A stretch of 64,000 nt of DNA from Azotobacter vinelandii CA (GTDB lineage Bacteria > Pseudomonadota > Gammaproteobacteria > Pseudomonadales > Pseudomonadaceae): contig NC_021149.1 of the NCBI RefSeq assembly GCF_000380335.1, forward strand, positions 248,001-312,000. Direction: 5' to 3'. Below are positions 4,507-15,827 of the stretch, one piece after another. The position numbers were made by a program, and so were the translations under genes. Position 1 is the stretch's first letter. The number at the start of each line of letters is the position of its first letter. The notes under the pieces were generated by a model. That model had not been told where the DNA came from and made no database searches. It was given only the letters and a program-made list of their open reading frames with translations.

Positions 4507-5540
<1,034 letters not shown>

Positions 5541-5817: not shown

Positions 5818-7194
5818 ATGAGCACTCCCCTTGCGCTTCCCGGCGAGGCCGCCGCATCCGGCCGCGCCCCGGTTCCGAAAACCCTCGACGTACAGGCCTT
5901 CATCGATTCCCGGCCGCTCGGCCTCTACCAGTGGCGCATCGTTCTGCTGTGTTTCCTGATCGTCTTCCTCGACGGTCTGGATACCGCCGCCATGGGCTTC
6001 ATCGCCCCGGCGCTGGTCCAGGACTGGGGCATCGACCGCGCCAGCCTCGGCCCGGTGATGAGCGCCGCGCTGATCGGCATGGTGTTCGGCGCGCTCTGCT
6101 CCGGTCCGCTGGCCGACCGCTTCGGTCGCAAGGGCGTGCTGGTCGGTTCGGCGCTGCTGTTCGGCCTGTTCAGCCTGGCGTCGGCCTACAGCGATAACGT
6201 CGGCGAACTGGTGGTGCTGCGCTTTCTCACCGGTCTGGGACTCGGCGCGGCCATGCCCAACGCCACCACGCTGCTGTCGGAATACACCCCGGTGCGCCAC
6301 AAGTCGCTGCTGGTGACCAGCATGTTCTGCGGCTTCAACCTGGGCATGGCGGCCGGCGGCTTCGTCTCCGCCTGGATGATCCCGGCCTATGGCTGGCACA
6401 GCCTGCTGCTGGTCGGTGGCGTGCTGCCGCTGCTCCTGGCGCTGGTGCTGCTGTTCTGGCTGCCCGAGTCGGCCCGCTACCTGGTGGCGCGCGGTCACGA
6501 CGTCGGGCGTGTCCGCCGGGTGCTGCGGCCGATCGGCGAGGAAGCGGCGCAGGCCAGGGGCTTCAGCATCCCCGAACAGCGCACGGAGAAGGCCGGCGGC
6601 GTCTTCGCGGTGATCTTCGGCGGCACCTTCCGTGTCGGCACCCTGCTGCTCTGGCTCACCTATTTCATGGGCCTGGTGATCGTCTATCTGCTGACCAGCT
6701 GGCTGCCCACGCTGCTGCGCGACAGCGGCGCGAGCATGGAGCGGGCCGCCTTCGTCGGCGCGCTGTTCCAGTTCGGCGGCGTGCTCAGCGCGGTGGCGGT
6801 GGGCTGGGCCATGGACCGCATGAACCCGCACAAGGTGATCGGTCTGTTCTACCTGATGGCCGGCCTCTTCACCTTCGCGGTCGGCCAGAGCCTGGGCCAG
6901 ACCGCCCTGCTGGCGACTCTGGTGCTGCTGGCCGGGATGAGCGTCAACGGCGCGCAGTCGGCCATGCCGTCCCTGGCGGCGCGCTTCTACCCGACCCACG
7001 GCCGCGCCACCGGCGTGTCCTGGATGCTCGGCATCGGCCGTTTCGGCGCCATCCTCGGCGCCTGGATCGGCGCGACCCTGCTCGGTCTCGGCTGGACCTT
7101 CGAGGATGTGCTCGGCGCCCTGCTGCTGCCGGCCGGCATCGCCACCGCGGCGATCCTGATCAAGGGCCTGGTCAGCCACGCCGACGCCACCTGA
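5818..7194 (+). CDS. MFS transporter, aromatic acid:H+ symporter type
   Basis: Inner-membrane transporter of 458 residues with about twelve hydrophobic segments. The loop signature GPLADRFGRKG lies near residues 96-106. The early GLDTAAMGFIAPALVQDWGI stretch is typical of the AAHS family (PcaK/BenK/MhpT type), which brings in aromatic carboxylates with protons. It is divergent from vnfH and shares its 438-base upstream region, including both VnfA sites and a possible sigma-54 promoter. If co-regulated, a role in taking up an aromatic acid linked to catechol metallophores (which bind V and Mo in Azotobacter) would make sense, but the substrate cannot be read from the sequence. A CA-rich ACAACAACGACAAGA just before the start could be a Crc/Hfq target. 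Confidence 0.85.
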   Translation: MSTPLALPGEAAASGRAPVPKTLDVQAFIDSRPLGLYQWRIVLLCFLIVFLDGLDTAAMGFIAPALVQDWGIDRASLGPVMSAALIGMVFGALCSGPLADRFGRKGVLVGSALLFGLFSLASAYSDNVGELVVLRFLTGLGLGAAMPNATTLLSEYTPVRHKSLLVTSMFCGFNLGMAAGGFVSAWMIPAYGWHSLLLVGGVLPLLLALVLLFWLPESARYLVARGHDVGRVRRVLRPIGEEAAQARGFSIPEQRTEKAGGVFAVIFGGTFRVGTLLLWLTYFMGLVIVYLLTSWLPTLLRDSGASMERAAFVGALFQFGGVLSAVAVGWAMDRMNPHKVIGLFYLMAGLFTFAVGQSLGQTALLATLVLLAGMSVNGAQSAMPSLAARFYPTHGRATGVSWMLGIGRFGAILGAWIGATLLGLGWTFEDVLGALLLPAGIATAAILIKGLVSHADAT

Positions 7195-7214
7195 GTCTCG
7201 CCCGTAATGCCGAG

Positions 7215-7246
7215 GGCCCGCCGGATGGCATCCGGCGGGCCTTTTT
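7215..7246 (+). terminator. Rho-independent terminator of the MFS gene
   Basis: Perfect 12-base stem (7215-7226 with 7230-7241, GGCCCGCCGGAT) with a three-base loop, followed by TTTTT. It lies 21 bases after the MFS stop, so the downstream operon needs its own promoter. Confidence 0.92.
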
Positions 7247-7734
7247 CGTCGCTTCGCCGTGATTTCCAGGTGGGTAAGCCCAGGGCCGCGCGCGGCCCGG
7301 CATGCCTGCGCCCATGCCGGATGGGCATGACTTGCCATGGGAAATAACGTGCAATAAATATTTTTTACGGTTTTATGACAGGCGTCACTTGTTCGTGCCG
7401 TTGCGAATGGCCATCCGCGGGCTTCGGCGGTCGTAGATGGGGCGTGCGACCGATCGAACGGCGTCGATTCCGTATTTCATCGGAACTACGCGGGGCATGT
7501 TTTCAATATATGTTTCGTTCTATAAAAAAGTAATTGACATGCCAGTACTCGCTATTAACGCAAGTTTTTCACAGGGATCGAAGAAGTATTTATGTGTATT
7601 TATTTGTATAGCGCTTTGGCGGCAGAAGCGAAGACCCCGATGGGCATTGCCTTGTCTTAGATTATTTGGTTGAGTTCGTTACGATAAAATCCATAAGGAC
7701 AGGAAGTAGTCCGATCGCTGCAGGGATAGGCTCA
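7247..7734 (+). other. Non-coding AT-rich leader of the sulfur-carrier operon
   Basis: About 490 bases with no convincing gene, much lower in GC than the flanks from about 7340 on. It must hold the promoter of the next operon. One weak sigma-54-like sequence is seen (TGGGAAATAACGTGCA, 7338-7353, correct GG-N10-GC spacing, poor -24 half). A TTGACA lies at 7534-7539 without a good -10. There is no GTAC-N6-GTAC pair. Confidence 0.5.
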
Positions 7735-8868
7735 ATGGATCTTTCAAAGCGGGAAATCAATAGATACAGCCGGCATCTGCTATTGCCCGAGGTGGGCCTG
7801 GAAGGGCAGTCGAGGCTGAAGCGGGCGAAGGTCCTGTGCGTCGGCACGGGCGGGCTGGGTTCCCCGCTGGCGCTGTATCTGGCCGCCGCCGGTGTCGGGC
7901 GTCTGGGGCTCGTCGACAGCGATGTCGTCGATTACAGCAATCTGCAGCGTCAGGTCATCCACCATACCGCCGATATCGGCAAACCGAAAATAACTTCGGC
8001 CGCCGAGAAACTTCGCGACCTCAATCCGGATATCGAGATCGTCAAGCACGAAACCATGCTCACGGCGGAGAATGCCTTCGACATTTGTTCCCGCTACGAC
8101 ATCGTCGCCGACGGTACCGATAACTTCTCCACGCGCTATCTGATCAACGATGTATGCGTGTTGCTGGGAAAACCCAATGTCCATGCCAGCATTTTCAGGT
8201 TCGAGGGGCAGGCTTCGGTTTTTTACGCGAAGGAGGGGCCCTGCTATCGATGCCTGTATCCCGAACCGCCGCCGCCCGGCGAAATACCCGGTTGCGCCGA
8301 AGGCGGGGTGTTGGGCGTGCTGCCGGGACTCCTGGGGGTCGTTCAGGCGACCGAGGTCATCAAGCGGATCCTGGGAATCGGCGATCCCCTCGTCGGGCGA
8401 CTGCTGATGTTCGATGCCCTGGGCATGCGGACCAGCGAACTGCGGATCGAGAAGGACCCCGACTGCCCCCTGTGCGGCACTTCGCCCAGCATCACCGGGC
8501 TACAGGATTACCAGGCCTTCTGCGGCGCGCTCGCGCCGGGCGGCGGGGCCCGCGCGGAGATCGCCGCCGGCGAGGCGGCCGTCTGGCTCGGACGCCCCGG
8601 GGATGTGCTCCTGCTGGATGTGCGGGAGCCGCACGAATGGGACATCTGCCGGATCGCGGGGGCTGTGCATGTGCCCCTGGGCGAGTTGGCCGCGCGTTGC
8701 GGGGAGTTGGACCCCGCGAAGGACATCATCGTCTACTGCCTGATGGGCGCGCGCGGCCGCAAGGCCCTGGAGATCCTCGAAGGGCAGGGCTTCCACAGGG
8801 TCTGGAACCTGCGGGGCGGCCTGCGGGCCTGGGTTGCGGAAGTCGACGGGACGCTGCCCCTTTATTGA
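7735..8868 (+). CDS. MoeZ/MoeBR-like sulfurtransferase: E1-type adenylyltransferase fused to rhodanese
   Basis: Protein of 377 residues. Residues 1-250 are a MoeB/ThiF E1-like domain: ATP-binding GTGGLGSPLALYLAAAGVG, the SNLQRQ motif, zinc CxxC pairs (CYRC near 170, CPLC near 245) and the loop GCAEGGVLG with the usual cysteine. Residues 280-377 are a rhodanese domain with the persulfide cysteine in VYCLMGARG. Proteins of this build (MoeZ of mycobacteria, MOCS3/Uba4) activate the C-terminal glycine of a ubiquitin-like carrier and turn it into a thiocarboxylate. The carrier is encoded two genes on. The ATG at 7735 begins the conserved SRHLLLPEVG segment; a TTG further up is less likely. It heads a four-gene plus-strand operon inside the vnf locus. 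Confidence 0.88.
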   Translation: MDLSKREINRYSRHLLLPEVGLEGQSRLKRAKVLCVGTGGLGSPLALYLAAAGVGRLGLVDSDVVDYSNLQRQVIHHTADIGKPKITSAAEKLRDLNPDIEIVKHETMLTAENAFDICSRYDIVADGTDNFSTRYLINDVCVLLGKPNVHASIFRFEGQASVFYAKEGPCYRCLYPEPPPPGEIPGCAEGGVLGVLPGLLGVVQATEVIKRILGIGDPLVGRLLMFDALGMRTSELRIEKDPDCPLCGTSPSITGLQDYQAFCGALAPGGGARAEIAAGEAAVWLGRPGDVLLLDVREPHEWDICRIAGAVHVPLGELAARCGELDPAKDIIVYCLMGARGRKALEILEGQGFHRVWNLRGGLRAWVAEVDGTLPLY

Positions 8869-8947
8869 CGACTTGTCGCGCGTTTCCCTTCGCCATCGCC
8901 GATGGGGAAGGCTTCATTGCTGGTTTTCGATAGACCGAAGGAATCTC

Positions 8948-9712
8948 ATGCAGACTAAGGCGCTTAGCGAGTTCGATAGGGAACGTTACTCCAGGCAGTT
9001 GCGGATCGAAGGCTTTGGCGAGGAAGGCCAGTTGCGCCTCAAGGGCGCCACCGTTCTGGTTTCCCGGGTGGGCGGCGTGGGCGGTACCGCGGCGATGAAC
9101 CTGGTGCGTGCCGGGGTGGGACGCCTGATCCTGGCGCACGGCGGCAAGGTGGTGCCGGAATACCTCAACCGCTGGCAACTGATCACGCCCGACGACCTGG
9201 GCCGGCCCTGCGCGCAGGTCTGGGCGGAAAAGCTCGGGCAGATCGATGCGGACGTCGAGATCGTCACGGTGGACGAATACATCAACGGGGAAAACGTCGC
9301 CGATCTCGTTTCCCGGGCCGACCTGGTGGTGGATGGCGCGCCGCTGTTCGAGGAGCGCTACCTGATGAACGACGAAGCCATGCGGCAGGGAAAGCCCCTG
9401 TGCATGGGCGCGATGTTCGGCATGGAAGGCTATGCGAGCACCTTCATTCCCGGCGAAAGCGCCTGCCTGCGCTGCGTGTTCCCGGAAAAGCCCGAGTACT
9501 GGACGGACATGAAGGTGTTCCCGGCGATCGGCCCCGGTCCGGCGATCGTCGGAACGACCATCGCCATGGAGGCGATCAAGGTGCTGACCGGCTTCGGCCA
9601 GCCGCTCAAGAACATACTCTGGTTCTTCGATCTTGAATCGAACACGACACGCTATCTCGAGATCGAGCGCGTGAAGGATTGCCCTGCCTGCGGGGCGAGC
9701 AGAAGCCACTGA
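8948..9712 (+). CDS. Second E1-like (HesA/MoeB/ThiF family) protein, atypical active site
   Basis: Protein of 254 residues with the ThiF fold: SRVGGVGGTAAMNLVRAGVG nucleotide site, YLNRWQL in place of the NLNRQ motif, and zinc cysteines CLRC (near 174) and CPAC (near 245). It departs from active E1 enzymes: the acidic residue after the second strand is replaced (AHGGKVVPEY), and the region that holds the usual cysteine in its neighbour reads FPAIGPGPAIVG, without one. It may be a regulatory or scaffolding partner of the MoeZ-like protein, or activate a different substrate by adenylation only. Start is the ATG at 8948 behind GAAGGAA, 79 bases after the previous gene; the carrier gene follows in 16 bases. 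Confidence 0.8.
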   Translation: MQTKALSEFDRERYSRQLRIEGFGEEGQLRLKGATVLVSRVGGVGGTAAMNLVRAGVGRLILAHGGKVVPEYLNRWQLITPDDLGRPCAQVWAEKLGQIDADVEIVTVDEYINGENVADLVSRADLVVDGAPLFEERYLMNDEAMRQGKPLCMGAMFGMEGYASTFIPGESACLRCVFPEKPEYWTDMKVFPAIGPGPAIVGTTIAMEAIKVLTGFGQPLKNILWFFDLESNTTRYLEIERVKDCPACGASRSH

Positions 9713-9728
9713 TTCCAGGAGAAAGACA

Positions 9729-10001
9729 ATGCCGACCCTTTTCGTGCCCGCGCCCTTCAGAAAGTCCGTCGAGGACCTGTCCAGACTGGAAGTCGGGGCA
9801 GGCTCCGTCAGCGCGCTGCTGCGGGAGGTCGATACGCGCTACCCGGGATTCAATGCCCAACTGCATGGCCCGGATGGCAGCGTGAAGAAATACATCAGGA
9901 TTTTCGTCAACGGGAAGGACATCAAGGCGCTCGACGGCATGGAAACGGCGCTCGATACCCGCGACGAAGTCTTCATCGTCTCGGCGATGGCCGGCGGCTG
10001 A
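9729..10001 (+). CDS. CysO/MoaD/ThiS-family ubiquitin-like sulfur carrier protein
   Basis: 90-residue beta-grasp protein ending exactly in MAGG, the double-glycine tail that E1 enzymes adenylate and thiocarboxylate. The segments YIRIFVNGKDIKALDGMETALDTRDEVFIV and PGFNAQL resemble mycobacterial CysO and its MoaD-like relatives more than ThiS. Because the tail is already exposed, no JAMM protease is needed to activate it, and none is nearby. RBS AGGAGA precedes the ATG at 9729. The sulfur acceptor is not evident: no cysM, thiG or moaE lies next to it (a normal thiS-thiG pair sits at 31154). It could serve a metallophore, a thiolated cofactor or FeV-co sulfur supply; all of these are inference from position. 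Confidence 0.85.
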   Translation: MPTLFVPAPFRKSVEDLSRLEVGAGSVSALLREVDTRYPGFNAQLHGPDGSVKKYIRIFVNGKDIKALDGMETALDTRDEVFIVSAMAGG

Positions 10002-10089
10002 GGCCGGCCCGGGGGCGTATCGGCCCGGTCATGGCATCGGGCGTCCAGCGAAGCGTCGAACCTGCACTCGATGCATACAGGAGGTTGTT

Positions 10090-10617
10090 TTGAGTTCCAT
10101 GGAAAGATCGTCGAAGTTCTTGCCGGTACTGGGTATGGCAGTGTGTCTCGCGGGCAATGCGTTCGCCTCGCAGGCCTCGTCCGAGCGCCAGGCGGAAGTC
10201 GCCCGGCGCGGTGCCCAGGTGATGCCCTTCGCCTTGGCGCAGACCACTCACATCTTCGAAAGAACGTCCGACGGCGGCATCCAGAAGGTCGTCCTGAAGG
10301 ACGGGGCGGACCCCGCCCAACTGACGCTGATCCGCCGGCATCTGCAGGAGGTCGGCGAACAGTTCGCGAGGCGGGACTTCTCCGCGCCGGAAACCATCCA
10401 CGGCCGCGACATGCCGGGCCTGGAGGCGCTCAGGAATGCCGCGCCGGGCGAGATGTCGGTGAGATACGCCGATATCCGGGACGGTGCGCAACTGCGCTTC
10501 GCCGCTGGCAGGCCGGAACTGATCCATGCGATCCATGCCTGGATCGGTGCCCAGCTCGGCGACCACGGGAGGGATGCCGTGGAAGGCCATTCCGCGCATC
10601 ACCATTCGATGCGCTGA
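10090..10617 (+). CDS. Exported small protein with His-rich C-terminus, function unknown
   Basis: 175 residues. The N-terminus (KFLPVLGMAVCLAGNAFA, cut probably after residue 26) is a Sec signal peptide, so the product should be periplasmic. The mature part has QTTHIFERTSDGGIQKVVLKD and a HGRDMPGL motif, and ends in GHSAHHHSMR. I recognise this as a small family often mislabelled aspartate carbamoyltransferase, commonly near metal-handling genes; no ATCase motif is present. The start is TTG at 10090 with a perfect AGGAGG five bases away; an ATG three codons on is possible. It is the last gene of the sulfur-carrier operon and faces vnfX tail to tail, 26 bases apart. Histidine content hints at metal binding; that is inference. 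Confidence 0.75.
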   Translation: MSSMERSSKFLPVLGMAVCLAGNAFASQASSERQAEVARRGAQVMPFALAQTTHIFERTSDGGIQKVVLKDGADPAQLTLIRRHLQEVGEQFARRDFSAPETIHGRDMPGLEALRNAAPGEMSVRYADIRDGAQLRFAAGRPELIHAIHAWIGAQLGDHGRDAVEGHSAHHHSMR

Positions 10618-10643
10618 GCCTTCGGCGCCCCGCACGGAAGTGG

Positions 10644-11192
10644 CTATTCCAGCTCCTCGATGGAGGTGATCAGGCGCAGGCCGTTGCCGGAGGGCGTGTG
10701 GGGCGCGGCGGGGTTCTGGGCCGCAGCGCGTTCGGCCTTGGCCTTGGCCCGCTCCACCCAGCTCAGGCCGCCGCAGTGCAGGGCCAGGCTGACCTCGTTG
10801 AGCAGGTCCTCGATGGTCTGGCCGGTGCCGACGATGATCGGCTGGATACCGGCCATTATCAGTCGCTTGATCGACGAAGTACCGATCGAGGCGGCGTAGA
10901 TCGCCGAGCAGCCTTCGAGGAATTTCAGCTTGGCGATCACCTTGTCCTCCGGTGGCTTGGCGGCGAGACGCTCCAGTTCCTCGGCGCTGAGCTGCAGGTC
11001 GATGATGTTGGTCTGCCCGTCCGACAGCGATTTGAAGCGGTTCTCGCCCTTCATGTTGGCCTGGACGAACTCGCCGACGCCGAGCAGTTCGGCGTAGCCC
11101 GGCGAAATGTCGTAGACCATCAGGGTGTCGGCGGCGCCGAAGTGCAGGTTGACGTTGACCCGGTCGTTGGACGCGAAAGCGACTTTGATCAT
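10644..11192 (-). CDS. vnfX: FeV-cofactor biosynthesis protein VnfX (NifX family)
   Basis: 182-residue member of the NifX/NafY family, which binds and carries cofactor precursors (VK-cluster for the V enzyme) between VnfEN and the apo-VFe protein. The core FASNDRVNVNLHFGAADTLMVYDI and HCGGLSWVERAKAKAERA segments are typical, followed by a Pro/Ala-rich tail. Its ATG at 11192 overlaps the vnfN stop as ATGA, so it is translationally coupled as the last gene of vnfENX. Confidence 0.92.
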   Translation of the reverse strand: MIKVAFASNDRVNVNLHFGAADTLMVYDISPGYAELLGVGEFVQANMKGENRFKSLSDGQTNIIDLQLSAEELERLAAKPPEDKVIAKLKFLEGCSAIYAASIGTSSIKRLIMAGIQPIIVGTGQTIEDLLNEVSLALHCGGLSWVERAKAKAERAAAQNPAAPHTPSGNGLRLITSIEELE

Positions 11193-12571
11193 GCAGTGAT
11201 GCTCCTCGCGGAAGGTGCGGCCGCGCCGTCGAAATCCTGGCGCAGCGGCGAGTGGTAGGGGGCGATGCCGGCGCCCCGGGGGGCGAACAGGTTGGCCAGT
11301 TCGAAGAGCAACTGGCGCGCGCCGCGGTAGCCGACCCACAGGCGCGCCGCCGCGCCGTAGTGGTCGTACTGCGGGAAACCCGCGCGCAGCAGCGGGATGC
11401 CGAGGCGCTCGGCGCTCTGCAGGGCGTGGGAGTTGCCGATCAGCAATTGCGCGGAGGTTTCGCGGGCGCGTTCCTCCAGGTCCTCGAAGTCGCCGATCAT
11501 CACTTCCTTGATATTCAGCGCCTCCAGCGCCGCGCTGCGGCAAGGGCTGACCGCGGCGACCAGGCGGGCGCCGACGTCGTCGAGGAAGCGGCCGATGGCG
11601 ACCAGTTGGTCGGCGTCGGCGCCGATGGCGATGCGCGTGCCGCCGACCGGGACATAGCTGTCGACCATGGCGTCGAGCAGTTGCTCGCGCTGGCGCAGGA
11701 TGCGCGCCGGCACCGGGCGGCCGGAGACATCGGCGAGCGCCTGGACGAAGGCGTCGCAGTCGGCCAGCGCGGTCAGTCCGGGCAGGCGCAGGTCCGGTAC
11801 TCCGGTACGCGCCTGCAGCAGGTCGGCGGCGCGGCCGAGGGAGTCACCGATCACCAGGGTCAGCGCCGAGCGGCCCATGGCGGCGATTTCCTGACGGGTG
11901 GTGCCGCCGGTGGTCAGGGTGGTGTAGCCCTGGGGCGTCAGGTGACCGTCGAGGGAGTCGGCCAGGTCGGGCAGGATCACCGCCTGCAGGCCGAAGCCCT
12001 CGATCCACTCGCGGATCGCCTCGACATCGGCCGGGGTCAGCATCGATCCGGCCAGCAGGTTGACCTGGCGGGCCCGCTGCGCCGCCGGCACCACGCTATC
12101 CGGCACCAGCGCCTCGATGATCGCCTCCACCGCCAGGGCGTAGCCGCTCTCCAGCCCGCCGAGGGTGTCCGGGGTGTTCACCGCGACGACGCTGGCGCTT
12201 TCGCAGCGTTCGGCATGGAAGCTGCGCAGCACGCGACGGATGTCGGCGCCCTGCATTTCCACCAGGCCGGTGGTGATCAGCCCGACCACTTCCGGGTGAT
12301 GCCCGTCGATCACCGTGGCCAGGCCTTCCTGCAGCCGCTCGTCGCTGCCGAGCACGGTGCTGGCCATGTCCAGCGCGGTGGTCTGCAATGGGATGGGTTC
12401 GCGGAAGTGGCGGGTGAAGAACACCTTGCTGAACGCCGTGCAGCCCTGGGCGCCGTGCTCCAGCGGCAGGCTGCGGGACAGGCCGAGGAAGGCCAGCGCG
12501 GCGCCCATCGGCTGGCTGACGCGCAGCGGATTGACGCTCAGGGGCTTGCTGGTCTGGACGATCCGGGCCAT
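11189..12571 (-). CDS. vnfN: FeV-cofactor assembly scaffold subunit VnfN
   Basis: 460-residue NifN-type protein, beta-like half of the VnfEN scaffold on which the iron-sulfur core of FeV-co matures. C44 in HGAQGCTAFSKVFFTRHFREPIPLQTT corresponds to the cluster ligand of NifN; the other P-cluster-type cysteines of VnfK are missing, as expected for an N subunit. It starts one base after the vnfE stop and overlaps vnfX by four bases, so the three genes form one tight unit. Confidence 0.95.
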   Translation of the reverse strand: MARIVQTSKPLSVNPLRVSQPMGAALAFLGLSRSLPLEHGAQGCTAFSKVFFTRHFREPIPLQTTALDMASTVLGSDERLQEGLATVIDGHHPEVVGLITTGLVEMQGADIRRVLRSFHAERCESASVVAVNTPDTLGGLESGYALAVEAIIEALVPDSVVPAAQRARQVNLLAGSMLTPADVEAIREWIEGFGLQAVILPDLADSLDGHLTPQGYTTLTTGGTTRQEIAAMGRSALTLVIGDSLGRAADLLQARTGVPDLRLPGLTALADCDAFVQALADVSGRPVPARILRQREQLLDAMVDSYVPVGGTRIAIGADADQLVAIGRFLDDVGARLVAAVSPCRSAALEALNIKEVMIGDFEDLEERARETSAQLLIGNSHALQSAERLGIPLLRAGFPQYDHYGAAARLWVGYRGARQLLFELANLFAPRGAGIAPYHSPLRQDFDGAAAPSARSITA

Positions 12572-12572
12572 G

Positions 12573-13982
12573 TCAGGCCTCCTCCAGCAGCGCGGCCCGG
12601 GTGCTGGCGCGTACCCAGCGCGGCTCCTGGCGCACGCGCTGCCATACCGGGCTGTGCACGGCCAGCGCCAACTGGCGGGCCAGTTCGACGAAACCGCCGT
12701 AGCCGGCGTAGCCGAAGTCGCGTTCGTGGTTGATGTCGAGGAACGCCAGGCGCGCCTTGAGCGCGGCGTACAGGTAGCGTCCGCCAGCGATGAGGATGTC
12801 GGCGCCGCTCTCGATGCAGGTGGCGATCAGCGCGCTCTGGTCGTTGTCGTCGATCATCCGGGCGTTCGGCCCCATCAGCTCGCGGATGCGCGCGCGGTCT
12901 TCCTCGGTGGATTTCTCGGTGCCGGTGGCGATCACCTCGACGCCGAGGTCCTGCAGCGCCGAAACCACCGACCAGGATTTCACGCCGCCGGAGAAGATCA
13001 GCGCGCGCTTGCCGGCCAGTCGCTCGCGCCAGGGTTCGAGCGCCGCCCTGGCCCTGTTTTCCTCGCGCAGGATCAGCAGTTCGGTGCGTACCGACAGCGA
13101 CGGGTCGCCGATCGCCTTGGCGAAGTCGCGCAGGGCCTGGGAGGTATCGGCGATACCGTAGAAGCTGCCCTCGAAGAACGGCGTGCCGTAGTCCTCGCGC
13201 AGGTGGCGGGCGACGTTGAGCATGGCCTTGGAGCAGACCACCATGTTGGCTTCGGCGCGGTGCATGGTCTGGACCTCGCGAAAGCGCGCGTCGCCGGACA
13301 GGGTGCAGAGAATGCGCAGGCCGAGTTCGTCGAACAGCGGCGCGACGCGCCAGAACTCGCCGGCGATGTTGTATTCGCCGATCAGGTTGACGTCGTGCAC
13401 CGTGATGCCGTGGCCGACGGCGCCTTGCGGCAGCGGCGCCGGTTCGCGGGTACCTATGACGTGGCGGTAGAGGGTTTCGCCGGCGATGCGGTTGCCCAGG
13501 CTCTTGGTGCCGTAGAAGCCGGCGCCGTCCACCGGAATCACCGGCACGCCCCAGCGCTGGCTGGCGTCGCGGGCCACCGCTTCGATGTCGTCGCCCTGCA
13601 TCGCCGGCACGCAGGTGCCGTAGACGAACACTGCCTGCGGCTGGTAGCGCTCGACTGCACGGCGGATGGCGTGGAACAGCTTTTTCTCGCCGCGGCCCAT
13701 GATCACGTCGACGTCGGACAGTTCGGTGGTCATGCCCAGGCGGTACAACTGTGGGCCGGAGGAATTGCTGCCGCGCAGGTCCCAGGAACTGCCGGCACAG
13801 CCGATCGGACCGTGGACGATGTGCGCGGCGTCGGCGATCGGCAGGATGGCGATCTGCGCGCCGTCGAAGGCGCAGCCGCCCTGGGTGGCTCCCGGGCGCG
13901 AGCGCGAGCAGCCGGTCTTGCCCGCCGTGTTGTGGGTGCAGGCTGGCTCGTCGAGCAGGTTCTGGATTTCGGTCTGATTCAT
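12573..13982 (-). CDS. vnfE: FeV-cofactor assembly scaffold subunit VnfE
   Basis: 469-residue NifE-type protein, alpha-like half of the VnfEN scaffold. Cluster-ligand cysteines fall at C37 (GGCAFDGA), C62 (GPIGCAGS) and C124 ([12 protein letters not shown]), matching NifE numbering; the position equivalent to the cofactor cysteine is in VVCSKAML. Start is the ATG at 13982 behind GGAGAGGGA. It is first in vnfENX and is transcribed from a sigma-54 promoter at 14081-14096, with VnfA sites between it and the end of vnfA. Confidence 0.95.
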
Positions 13983-14080
13983 CGTCCCTCTCCGGACGGG
14001 CGATGCCCGTCGCGTGCGGTGGATGGAAAGGTGCGGTCCGCCGGGCGGAGCGCCCCGTCGCGAACCCCTGCAGGAGCTGG

Positions 14081-14209: not shown

Positions 14210-15778
<1,569 letters not shown>

Positions 15779-15827
15779 GGGAATGACCACTCCTGTCTGG
15801 CGTTCTGTCTGGCGCATGGGACTCTAC

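Follow-up and report, generated by a model that had tools for sequence, protein, structure and literature searches.

HesA proteins encoded in nif clusters are the closest described relatives of the system analysed here. In Paenibacillus polymyxa, loss of hesA was reported to remove almost all nitrogenase activity and to leave nitrate reductase unaffected; high molybdate or cystine partly suppressed the defect, and nifQ from K. oxytoca failed to replace hesA (PMC6361004). In L. boryana, hesA loss gave a nitrogenase activity of 34%, with growth as in the wild type (PMC6428710). As far as the available parts of these two reports go, nif clusters encode HesA as a protein of unknown function, and a role in nitrogenase maturation is given only for nif HesA (PMC6361004, PMC6428710). 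Here, we describe a HesA-type gene that lies, together with genes for an E1-rhodanese fusion and a sulfur carrier, next to the vanadium nitrogenase (vnf) genes of Azotobacter vinelandii CA. It was found in a stretch of 64,000 nucleotides, hereafter the window (NC_021149.1, positions 248,001 to 312,000, or G000:C1:248001-312000, with G000 the source genome and G001, G002, and G003 the other Azotobacter genomes). Our preferred reading, to which we give about an even chance, is that the first three genes of this four-gene operon form a HesA-type sulfur-transfer module, which supports the cellular use of molybdenum (Mo), tungsten (W), or vanadium (V) oxyanions and is not vnf-dependent. Among the titles and abstract openings returned by searches on HesA combined with Azotobacter or vnf, with MoaD or ThiF, and with molybdate or ModABC, none describes such a module, which is not a claim of its absence from print.

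The operon and its HesA-type protein

Four open reading frames on the + strand, separated by gaps of 79, 16, and 88 bases, make up the operon:

7735..8868, + strand: E1-rhodanese fusion P0001 (MoeZ/Uba4-like), with canonical ATP-site residues and the rhodanese loop CLMGAR
8948..9712, + strand: HesA-clade E1-like protein P0002, assigned by ThiF match, tree, and residue comparison
9729..10001, + strand: ThiS/MoaD/SAMP1-like sulfur carrier P0003, with the C-terminus MAGG
10090..10617, + strand: secreted protein P0004, with a TTG start; its family is annotated elsewhere as 'aspartate carbamoyltransferase', and we regard it as a passenger rather than part of the core

An earlier note on this DNA had described the same set, namely an E1-rhodanese, a second E1-like protein, a carrier ending in GG, and an exported protein, and had remarked that the usual acceptors of carrier sulfur were missing. 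Both points were borne out: all four reading frames were confirmed, and CysM, JAMM, MoaE, and ThiG were absent from the operon genes.

In family scans, P0001 matched ThiF (E 1.9e-82) and Rhodanese (E 4.1e-18); with its ThiF domain, its C-terminal rhodanese domain, and intact residues in both, it is of the MoeZ/Uba4 type. It also matched MoeB/MoeZ models, one of them above its cut-off (PRK08762, 451.7 versus 449). P0002 was recognized as a ThiF protein (E 6.5e-50). P0003 matched the ThiS family (E 1.7e-8) and ends in ...VSAMAGG, the C-terminal GG expected of a sulfur carrier; it also matched structure 3dwg, which is CysO. Overall, P0001 and P0003 resemble, in architecture, residues, and carrier terminus, the MoeZ/Uba4 systems with CysO/Urm1/SAMP-type carriers. 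The Azotobacter operon differs from these systems by an additional, non-canonical E1 (HesA) and by the lack of the four acceptors named above.

A tree of 105 E1-type rows was split by a 100/100 branch into 68 HesA rows and 37 canonical rows, with P0002 on the HesA side. There, P0002 grouped (100/99) with the proteins from G002 and from the gammaproteobacterium G465, inside a 48-row HesA set (100/98) that was separate from the cyanobacterial rows. Profile scores parted HesA from canonical rows in the same manner (difference of at least 162 versus at most 63). The two sides also differed in their residues (E. coli MoeB numbering), several of which bind ATP or Mg. D62, N70, K86, and D130 were present in all 37 canonical rows and in none of the 68 HesA rows, P0002 included; D64 was found in 35 and C187 in 31 of the 37 canonical rows, and neither occurred in a HesA row. 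R73 was retained in 68 out of 68 HesA rows, and the zinc-site cysteines, four in number, in 62 to 66 rows each. P0002 has lost D62, D64, N70, K86, D130, and C187, and retains R73 and the four zinc-site cysteines; P0001 retains all of these E1 residues.

By tree and residue comparison, P0002 belongs to the HesA clade; next to the gene for an intact E1-rhodanese, the operon thus has the gene for an E1 that is probably unable to adenylate. Heterodimeric eukaryotic E1s combine one active half with one inactive half. The operon resembles them in encoding an intact and a degenerate E1 together. P0002 also resembles the HesA proteins encoded in the nif clusters of Cyanobacteria and Paenibacillus: it has a nitrogenase context and, in the sequence comparison, which covered the cyanobacterial proteins, shares their clade and their ATP-site loss. 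The best plasmid-borne relatives of P0002 were cyanobacterial proteins annotated HesA/MoeB/ThiF, with 42-43% identity, one of which is encoded in a nifEN-nifX-nifW-hesA cluster, where the adjoining gene specifies an iron-sulfur assembly protein.

HesA neighbourhoods in other phyla

HesA genes were searched with a seven-row profile, and matches were counted at E ≤ 1e-75. Matches were obtained in 42 out of 194 cyanobacterial genomes, 16 out of 240 Verrucomicrobiota genomes, and 27 out of 199 Planctomycetota genomes. Among 369 gammaproteobacterial genomes, only G000 (438 bits) and G465 (291 bits) stood out, the next match scoring 227 bits. The Verrucomicrobiota and Planctomycetota set comprised 45 loci, corresponding to all 44 matches (two via L051 and L052) plus L053, and the cyanobacterial set comprised 18 loci chosen by hand out of 44 matches. 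Neighbours were labelled from phmmer scores with thresholds that we set ourselves, within 5 kb unless otherwise stated.

Around the 45 Verrucomicrobiota and Planctomycetota HesA loci, we found a Mod-type permease at 33, a ModA-like protein at 32, and a carrier at 35, on the same strand as HesA in all 35 cases. The carriers adjoining HesA ended exactly in GG in 33 out of 36 cases. Within 1.4 kb, the permease was present at 25 and the ModA-like protein at 5 of the 45 HesA loci, and both were absent from all 51 canonical E1 loci used as a control, most of which (46) were gammaproteobacterial. A carrier was nearby at only 1 of these 51 loci versus 35 of the 45 HesA loci. A second control was drawn from the same genomes, with 30 loci from which 9 were set aside before the count (2 HesA genes and 7 genes inside HesA modules); the remaining 21 canonical loci, all away from HesA, had no transporter and 2 carriers. 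Because NifH was above its cut-off in only 2 of the 43 Verrucomicrobiota and Planctomycetota genomes with HesA, the link between HesA and Mod-type uptake is independent of nitrogenase. These loci resemble the Azotobacter operon in combining HesA with a GG carrier and sometimes an E1-rhodanese; unlike it, they mostly have a ModABC-type transporter nearby.

Upstream of HesA, four Verrucomicrobiota loci (L199, L201, L203, and L204) contained an additional, weak E1-like open reading frame, located just 5' of the gene and scoring 55-69 bits against the HesA profile.

At the 18 cyanobacterial HesA loci, NifEN, NifX, NifW, and HesB were found in 16, Mop in 8, and a Mod-type transporter in 3. Moreover, on two of three Nostoc plasmids carrying vnfD (L294 and L295, on C057 and C052), HesA and Mop lay 6-7 kb from vnfD, with ModD between and modAB beyond; on the third, no HesA was found within 16 kb of vnfD. 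On C057 and C052, two Mop proteins, HesA, ModD, and modAB all lay about 15 kb or less from vnfD.

Whole or partial modules were also observed. G465, a 1.6-Mb assembly, has E1, HesA, and carrier genes in the same order as Azotobacter, away from vnf, and no nifH above its cut-off. The planctomycete G1351 (L236) combines, in 13 kb, NifE (705 bits), NifN (593 bits), a NifX-like protein, HesA, a carrier (...ALAGG), an E1-rhodanese, and HesB, in this order, with a ModABC-type transporter. The genomes matching nifH (G1351, G1014 twice, and G1180, which is partial and below the cut-off) all had an E1 near HesA versus 3 of 40 others, a contrast drawn post hoc. In the nifH-positive verrucomicrobial genome G1014, two sets of transporter, HesA, and carrier were present (L208 and L209), each about 6 kb from an E1-rhodanese. 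The earlier note was supported as far as a link to group 5/6 metals goes: in other genomes, the neighbours of HesA-clade genes include ModABC-type transporters, nifENX, and Mop/ModD, as well as vnfD on the two Nostoc plasmids.

Proposed function of the module

Published hesA phenotypes and these neighbourhoods make a sulfur-transfer module, used where Mo, W, or V oxyanions enter metabolism, the simplest account. From the observed gene content, clade membership, residue losses, and neighbourhoods, we infer each chemical step as follows. The E1-rhodanese would adenylate the C-terminal glycine of the carrier, and its rhodanese domain would load sulfur as a thiocarboxylate, as in established E1-rhodanese biochemistry. 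The HesA-like protein, its own ATP site being lost, may act as a non-adenylating partner or receiver, whether it forms one half of a mixed E1 pair or serves as a docking factor. It would then hand the sulfur of the carrier to a step that thiolates a metal oxyanion or builds it into a cofactor. The destination of the sulfur might be the metal, a scaffold, or a storage form. In Azotobacter, the module next to vnfENX may assist cofactor building there, being neither tied to vnf nor required by it.

Several observations weigh against this proposal. Next to the Azotobacter operon itself, we observed no Mo, W, or V transporter, and the G465 module adjoins a CopA-like ATPase and a cupredoxin-like protein rather than an oxyanion transporter. 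Among the 45 Verrucomicrobiota and Planctomycetota loci, 12 had no permease and 10 no carrier, some of them near contig ends; a canonical E1 lay within about 6.2 kb of HesA in only 7, six of these with a rhodanese part. The E1-rhodaneses of HesA modules were not resolved as a clade in the 105-row tree. In addition, neither a carrier nor an E1 was found within 5 kb of HesA at any of the 18 cyanobacterial loci, so that the Azotobacter copy, which lies beside vnf with an E1-rhodanese and a carrier of its own, differs from cyanobacterial nif HesA. A further difference from cyanobacterial HesA is that HesB, part of the hesAB-fdxH arrangement, was absent from the operon genes.

The identity of the transporters is a further weakness. 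Curated models were run on the L052 transporter only, and its binding protein passed modA (100.5 versus a cut-off of 62.5). Its permease stayed below the cut-offs of a putative Mo permease model (195.6 versus 210.3) and of modB (155.5 versus 182.6). The ATPase scored 167.6 versus 285.05 for ModC, its best model being WtpC (tungstate), far under the cut-off. Transporters of the other loci were labelled by phmmer similarity to the L051-L053 and Nostoc proteins. These labels do not distinguish between Mo, W, V, and another oxyanion as the substrate.

A narrower version of the proposal, which we consider unlikely, is that nitrogenase cofactor assembly uses HesA modules as a heterometal-sulfur donor system, at the step for which other organisms have NifQ. 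The E1-rhodanese, being active, and its ATP-dead HesA partner would load and present the thiocarboxylate carrier, the oxyanion (molybdate, tungstate, or vanadate) would be converted to a thiolated species, and this would be passed to NifEN or VnfEN; the Azotobacter copy would serve V, Mo, or both. In this case, HesA and NifQ would not be interchangeable, given the failure of nifQ from K. oxytoca to stand in for hesA in P. polymyxa. If true, the acceptor of the carrier sulfur would be a metal oxyanion, and the E1/carrier chemistry would be of a new kind.

The vnf genes and other explanations

The operon is surrounded by the following features:

4507..5379, - strand: vnfH, by family match
5818..7194, + strand: PcaK-type 4-hydroxybenzoate transporter (NF053517, 881 bits, cut-off 770)
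7642..7734, + strand: leader of about 90 bases, conserved with G002, with no Rfam match
10644..11192, - strand: vnfX, convergent with the operon; named from the earlier note and its position, with 86-88% by tblastn in congeners
11189..12571, - strand: vnfN, NifN-type (545.8 bits)
12573..13994, - strand: vnfE, NifE-type (692.9 bits); the interval takes in a few codons 5' of the start
14210..15817, - strand: vnfA, NifA-type sigma-54 activator

The earlier note had placed a tight, co-oriented operon between vnfH and vnfENX. The small gaps agree with this; however, pcaK intervenes between vnfH and the operon, and the flanking vnf genes are all on the opposite strand, with vnfX, vnfN, vnfE, and vnfA running towards the operon.

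Its central suggestion was that the operon may deliver thiocarboxylate sulfur for a V-related purpose, such as FeV-co, a thio-metallophore, or thio-metalate handling. In a V-specific reading, the operon would provide sulfur, or a thio-vanadium species, for the building of the FeV-cofactor on VnfEN. The position next to vnfXNE, the secreted gene kept beside vnfX in G001, and HesA at 6-7 kb from vnfD on two of the three Nostoc plasmids are all consistent with this. The comparison within the genus is not. Although vnfD was above its cut-off in all four Azotobacter genomes, the HesA-like gene and the carrier were present in only two (G000 and G002), the other two lacking the three-gene core. G002 has all four genes (protein identity of 86, 89, 86, and 81%) together with pcaK, next to spoT and 1.6 Mb from vnf. 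In G003, the same vnf locus and pcaK are found, and the site of the operon holds about 1.1 kb of other genes, none of the four being there. G001 retains only the secreted gene, adjoining vnfX. Because vnf is kept without the core in two of the four genomes and the operon is distant from vnf in G002, the operon is neither needed by vnf nor bound to it in this genus. Co-occurrence with vnf clusters, a check set beforehand, was accordingly mixed and counts in part against a V-related role.

Two side observations concern these loci. The partners of pcaK differ between genomes, with the operon and not vnf in G002, and with vnfH/vnf and not the operon in G003. Moreover, small, mutually similar membrane-like genes lie near vnfX in G003 (L067:11300-11734) and G002 (L068:8267-8671), where the window has the operon.

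Regulatory sites pointed in the same direction as the genus comparison. A motif scan detected exact VnfA motifs and a sigma-54-like site 5' of both vnfH and vnfE, and neither a VnfA motif nor a sigma-54 site in the 540 bases before the operon (7195-7735); the scan was imperfectly sensitive, as the known target vnfD came out without a sigma-54 site, and may also have missed one at the operon. In the available part of a chromatin immunoprecipitation sequencing (ChIP-seq) report on VnfA1, the targets inside the vnf cluster are vnfH, vnfD, and vnfE (PMC9542535). No sigma-70 promoter was found by the scan, and an Rfam scan of 7150-11200 at gathering scores gave no match. A V-specific operon was rejected as the main reading on the genus comparison, and we consider it distinctly improbable.

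The earlier note had also suggested a functional part for the exported protein, acting on metal in the periplasm. P0004 has a signal-peptide-like start (judged by eye), a His-containing tail (HSAHHHSMR), and a TTG start codon at 10090 with AGGAGG just 5' of it. Neither Pfam nor NCBIfam gave a match at E 0.001, and the protein, folded alone, had a mean predicted local distance difference test score (pLDDT) of 47.5. Its family is sparse, being present in 6 of 398 genomes of the phylum (its own included, and two of the six weak), and relatives elsewhere adjoin phosphate-, heavy-metal-, or otherwise annotated genes. No family member was found within 5 kb of HesA at any of 64 loci elsewhere, and G001 and unrelated records have the gene and not the module (in G002 and G003, the search for it covered the compared loci). 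P0004 was, for these reasons, rejected as part of the system. A second copy of the family is present in the source genome (C1:680942-681406; L078, L090; 46% identity). Within the P0004 gene, positions 10116-10129 match the published VnfA motif exactly, with no sigma-54 site, probably by chance.

Another explanation, to which we likewise give a low probability, is that the carrier serves cysteine synthesis, as CysO does, or a thio-siderophore or tRNA thiolation, with no tie to Mo or V. Apart from the match of the carrier to 3dwg, the plasmid match of highest identity to P0001 (64% over the E1 domain) is found with an M67 (JAMM-type) peptidase, a cysteine synthase, a MoaD/ThiS carrier, and a rhodanese, and copper genes adjoin the G465 module. 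However, the operon has no cysteine synthase or JAMM protein (for a distant CysM, no search of the genome was made). The source genome had Prok-JAB matches at just two sites, C1:277544 and C1:3671731, both away from the operon, and G465 and G1351 had none. Such a role would also leave the HesA partner unexplained.

A second MoeB/MoaD set for the molybdopterin cofactor (Moco) is very unlikely. P0001 does match MoeB/MoeZ models, and Mod transporters near HesA could serve Moco. However, no moaA, moaC, moaE, or moeA was found among the Azotobacter operon genes, or within 5 kb of any of the 45 HesA loci by phmmer with E. coli queries, which could miss distant forms; the 51 canonical loci also gave just one moeA. 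Moreover, an additional MoeB-like gene (C1:4179003) is present in the source genome, as are two further ThiS/MoaD-family carriers (C1:279160 and C1:1075458), and the P. polymyxa hesA mutant, as reported, kept its nitrate reductase (PMC6361004). Finally, the operon might be a bystander, an accessory set of metabolic genes that this strain does not currently use for nitrogenase or oxyanions, as the patchy occurrence in the genus and the common neighbour pcaK in G000 and G002 might suggest. This is highly doubtful given the identities of 86, 89, and 86% to G002 with intact frames, which argue for selection, and a HesA neighbourhood pattern that spans phyla.

In conclusion, HesA is tied across phyla to ModABC-type transporters, to a GG carrier, and sometimes to an E1-rhodanese. 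Together with the loss of the ATP site, this leads to a testable hypothesis on how sulfur may meet Mo, W, or V in the cell. With the whole set in three adjacent genes, Azotobacter would be a convenient organism in which to test it.

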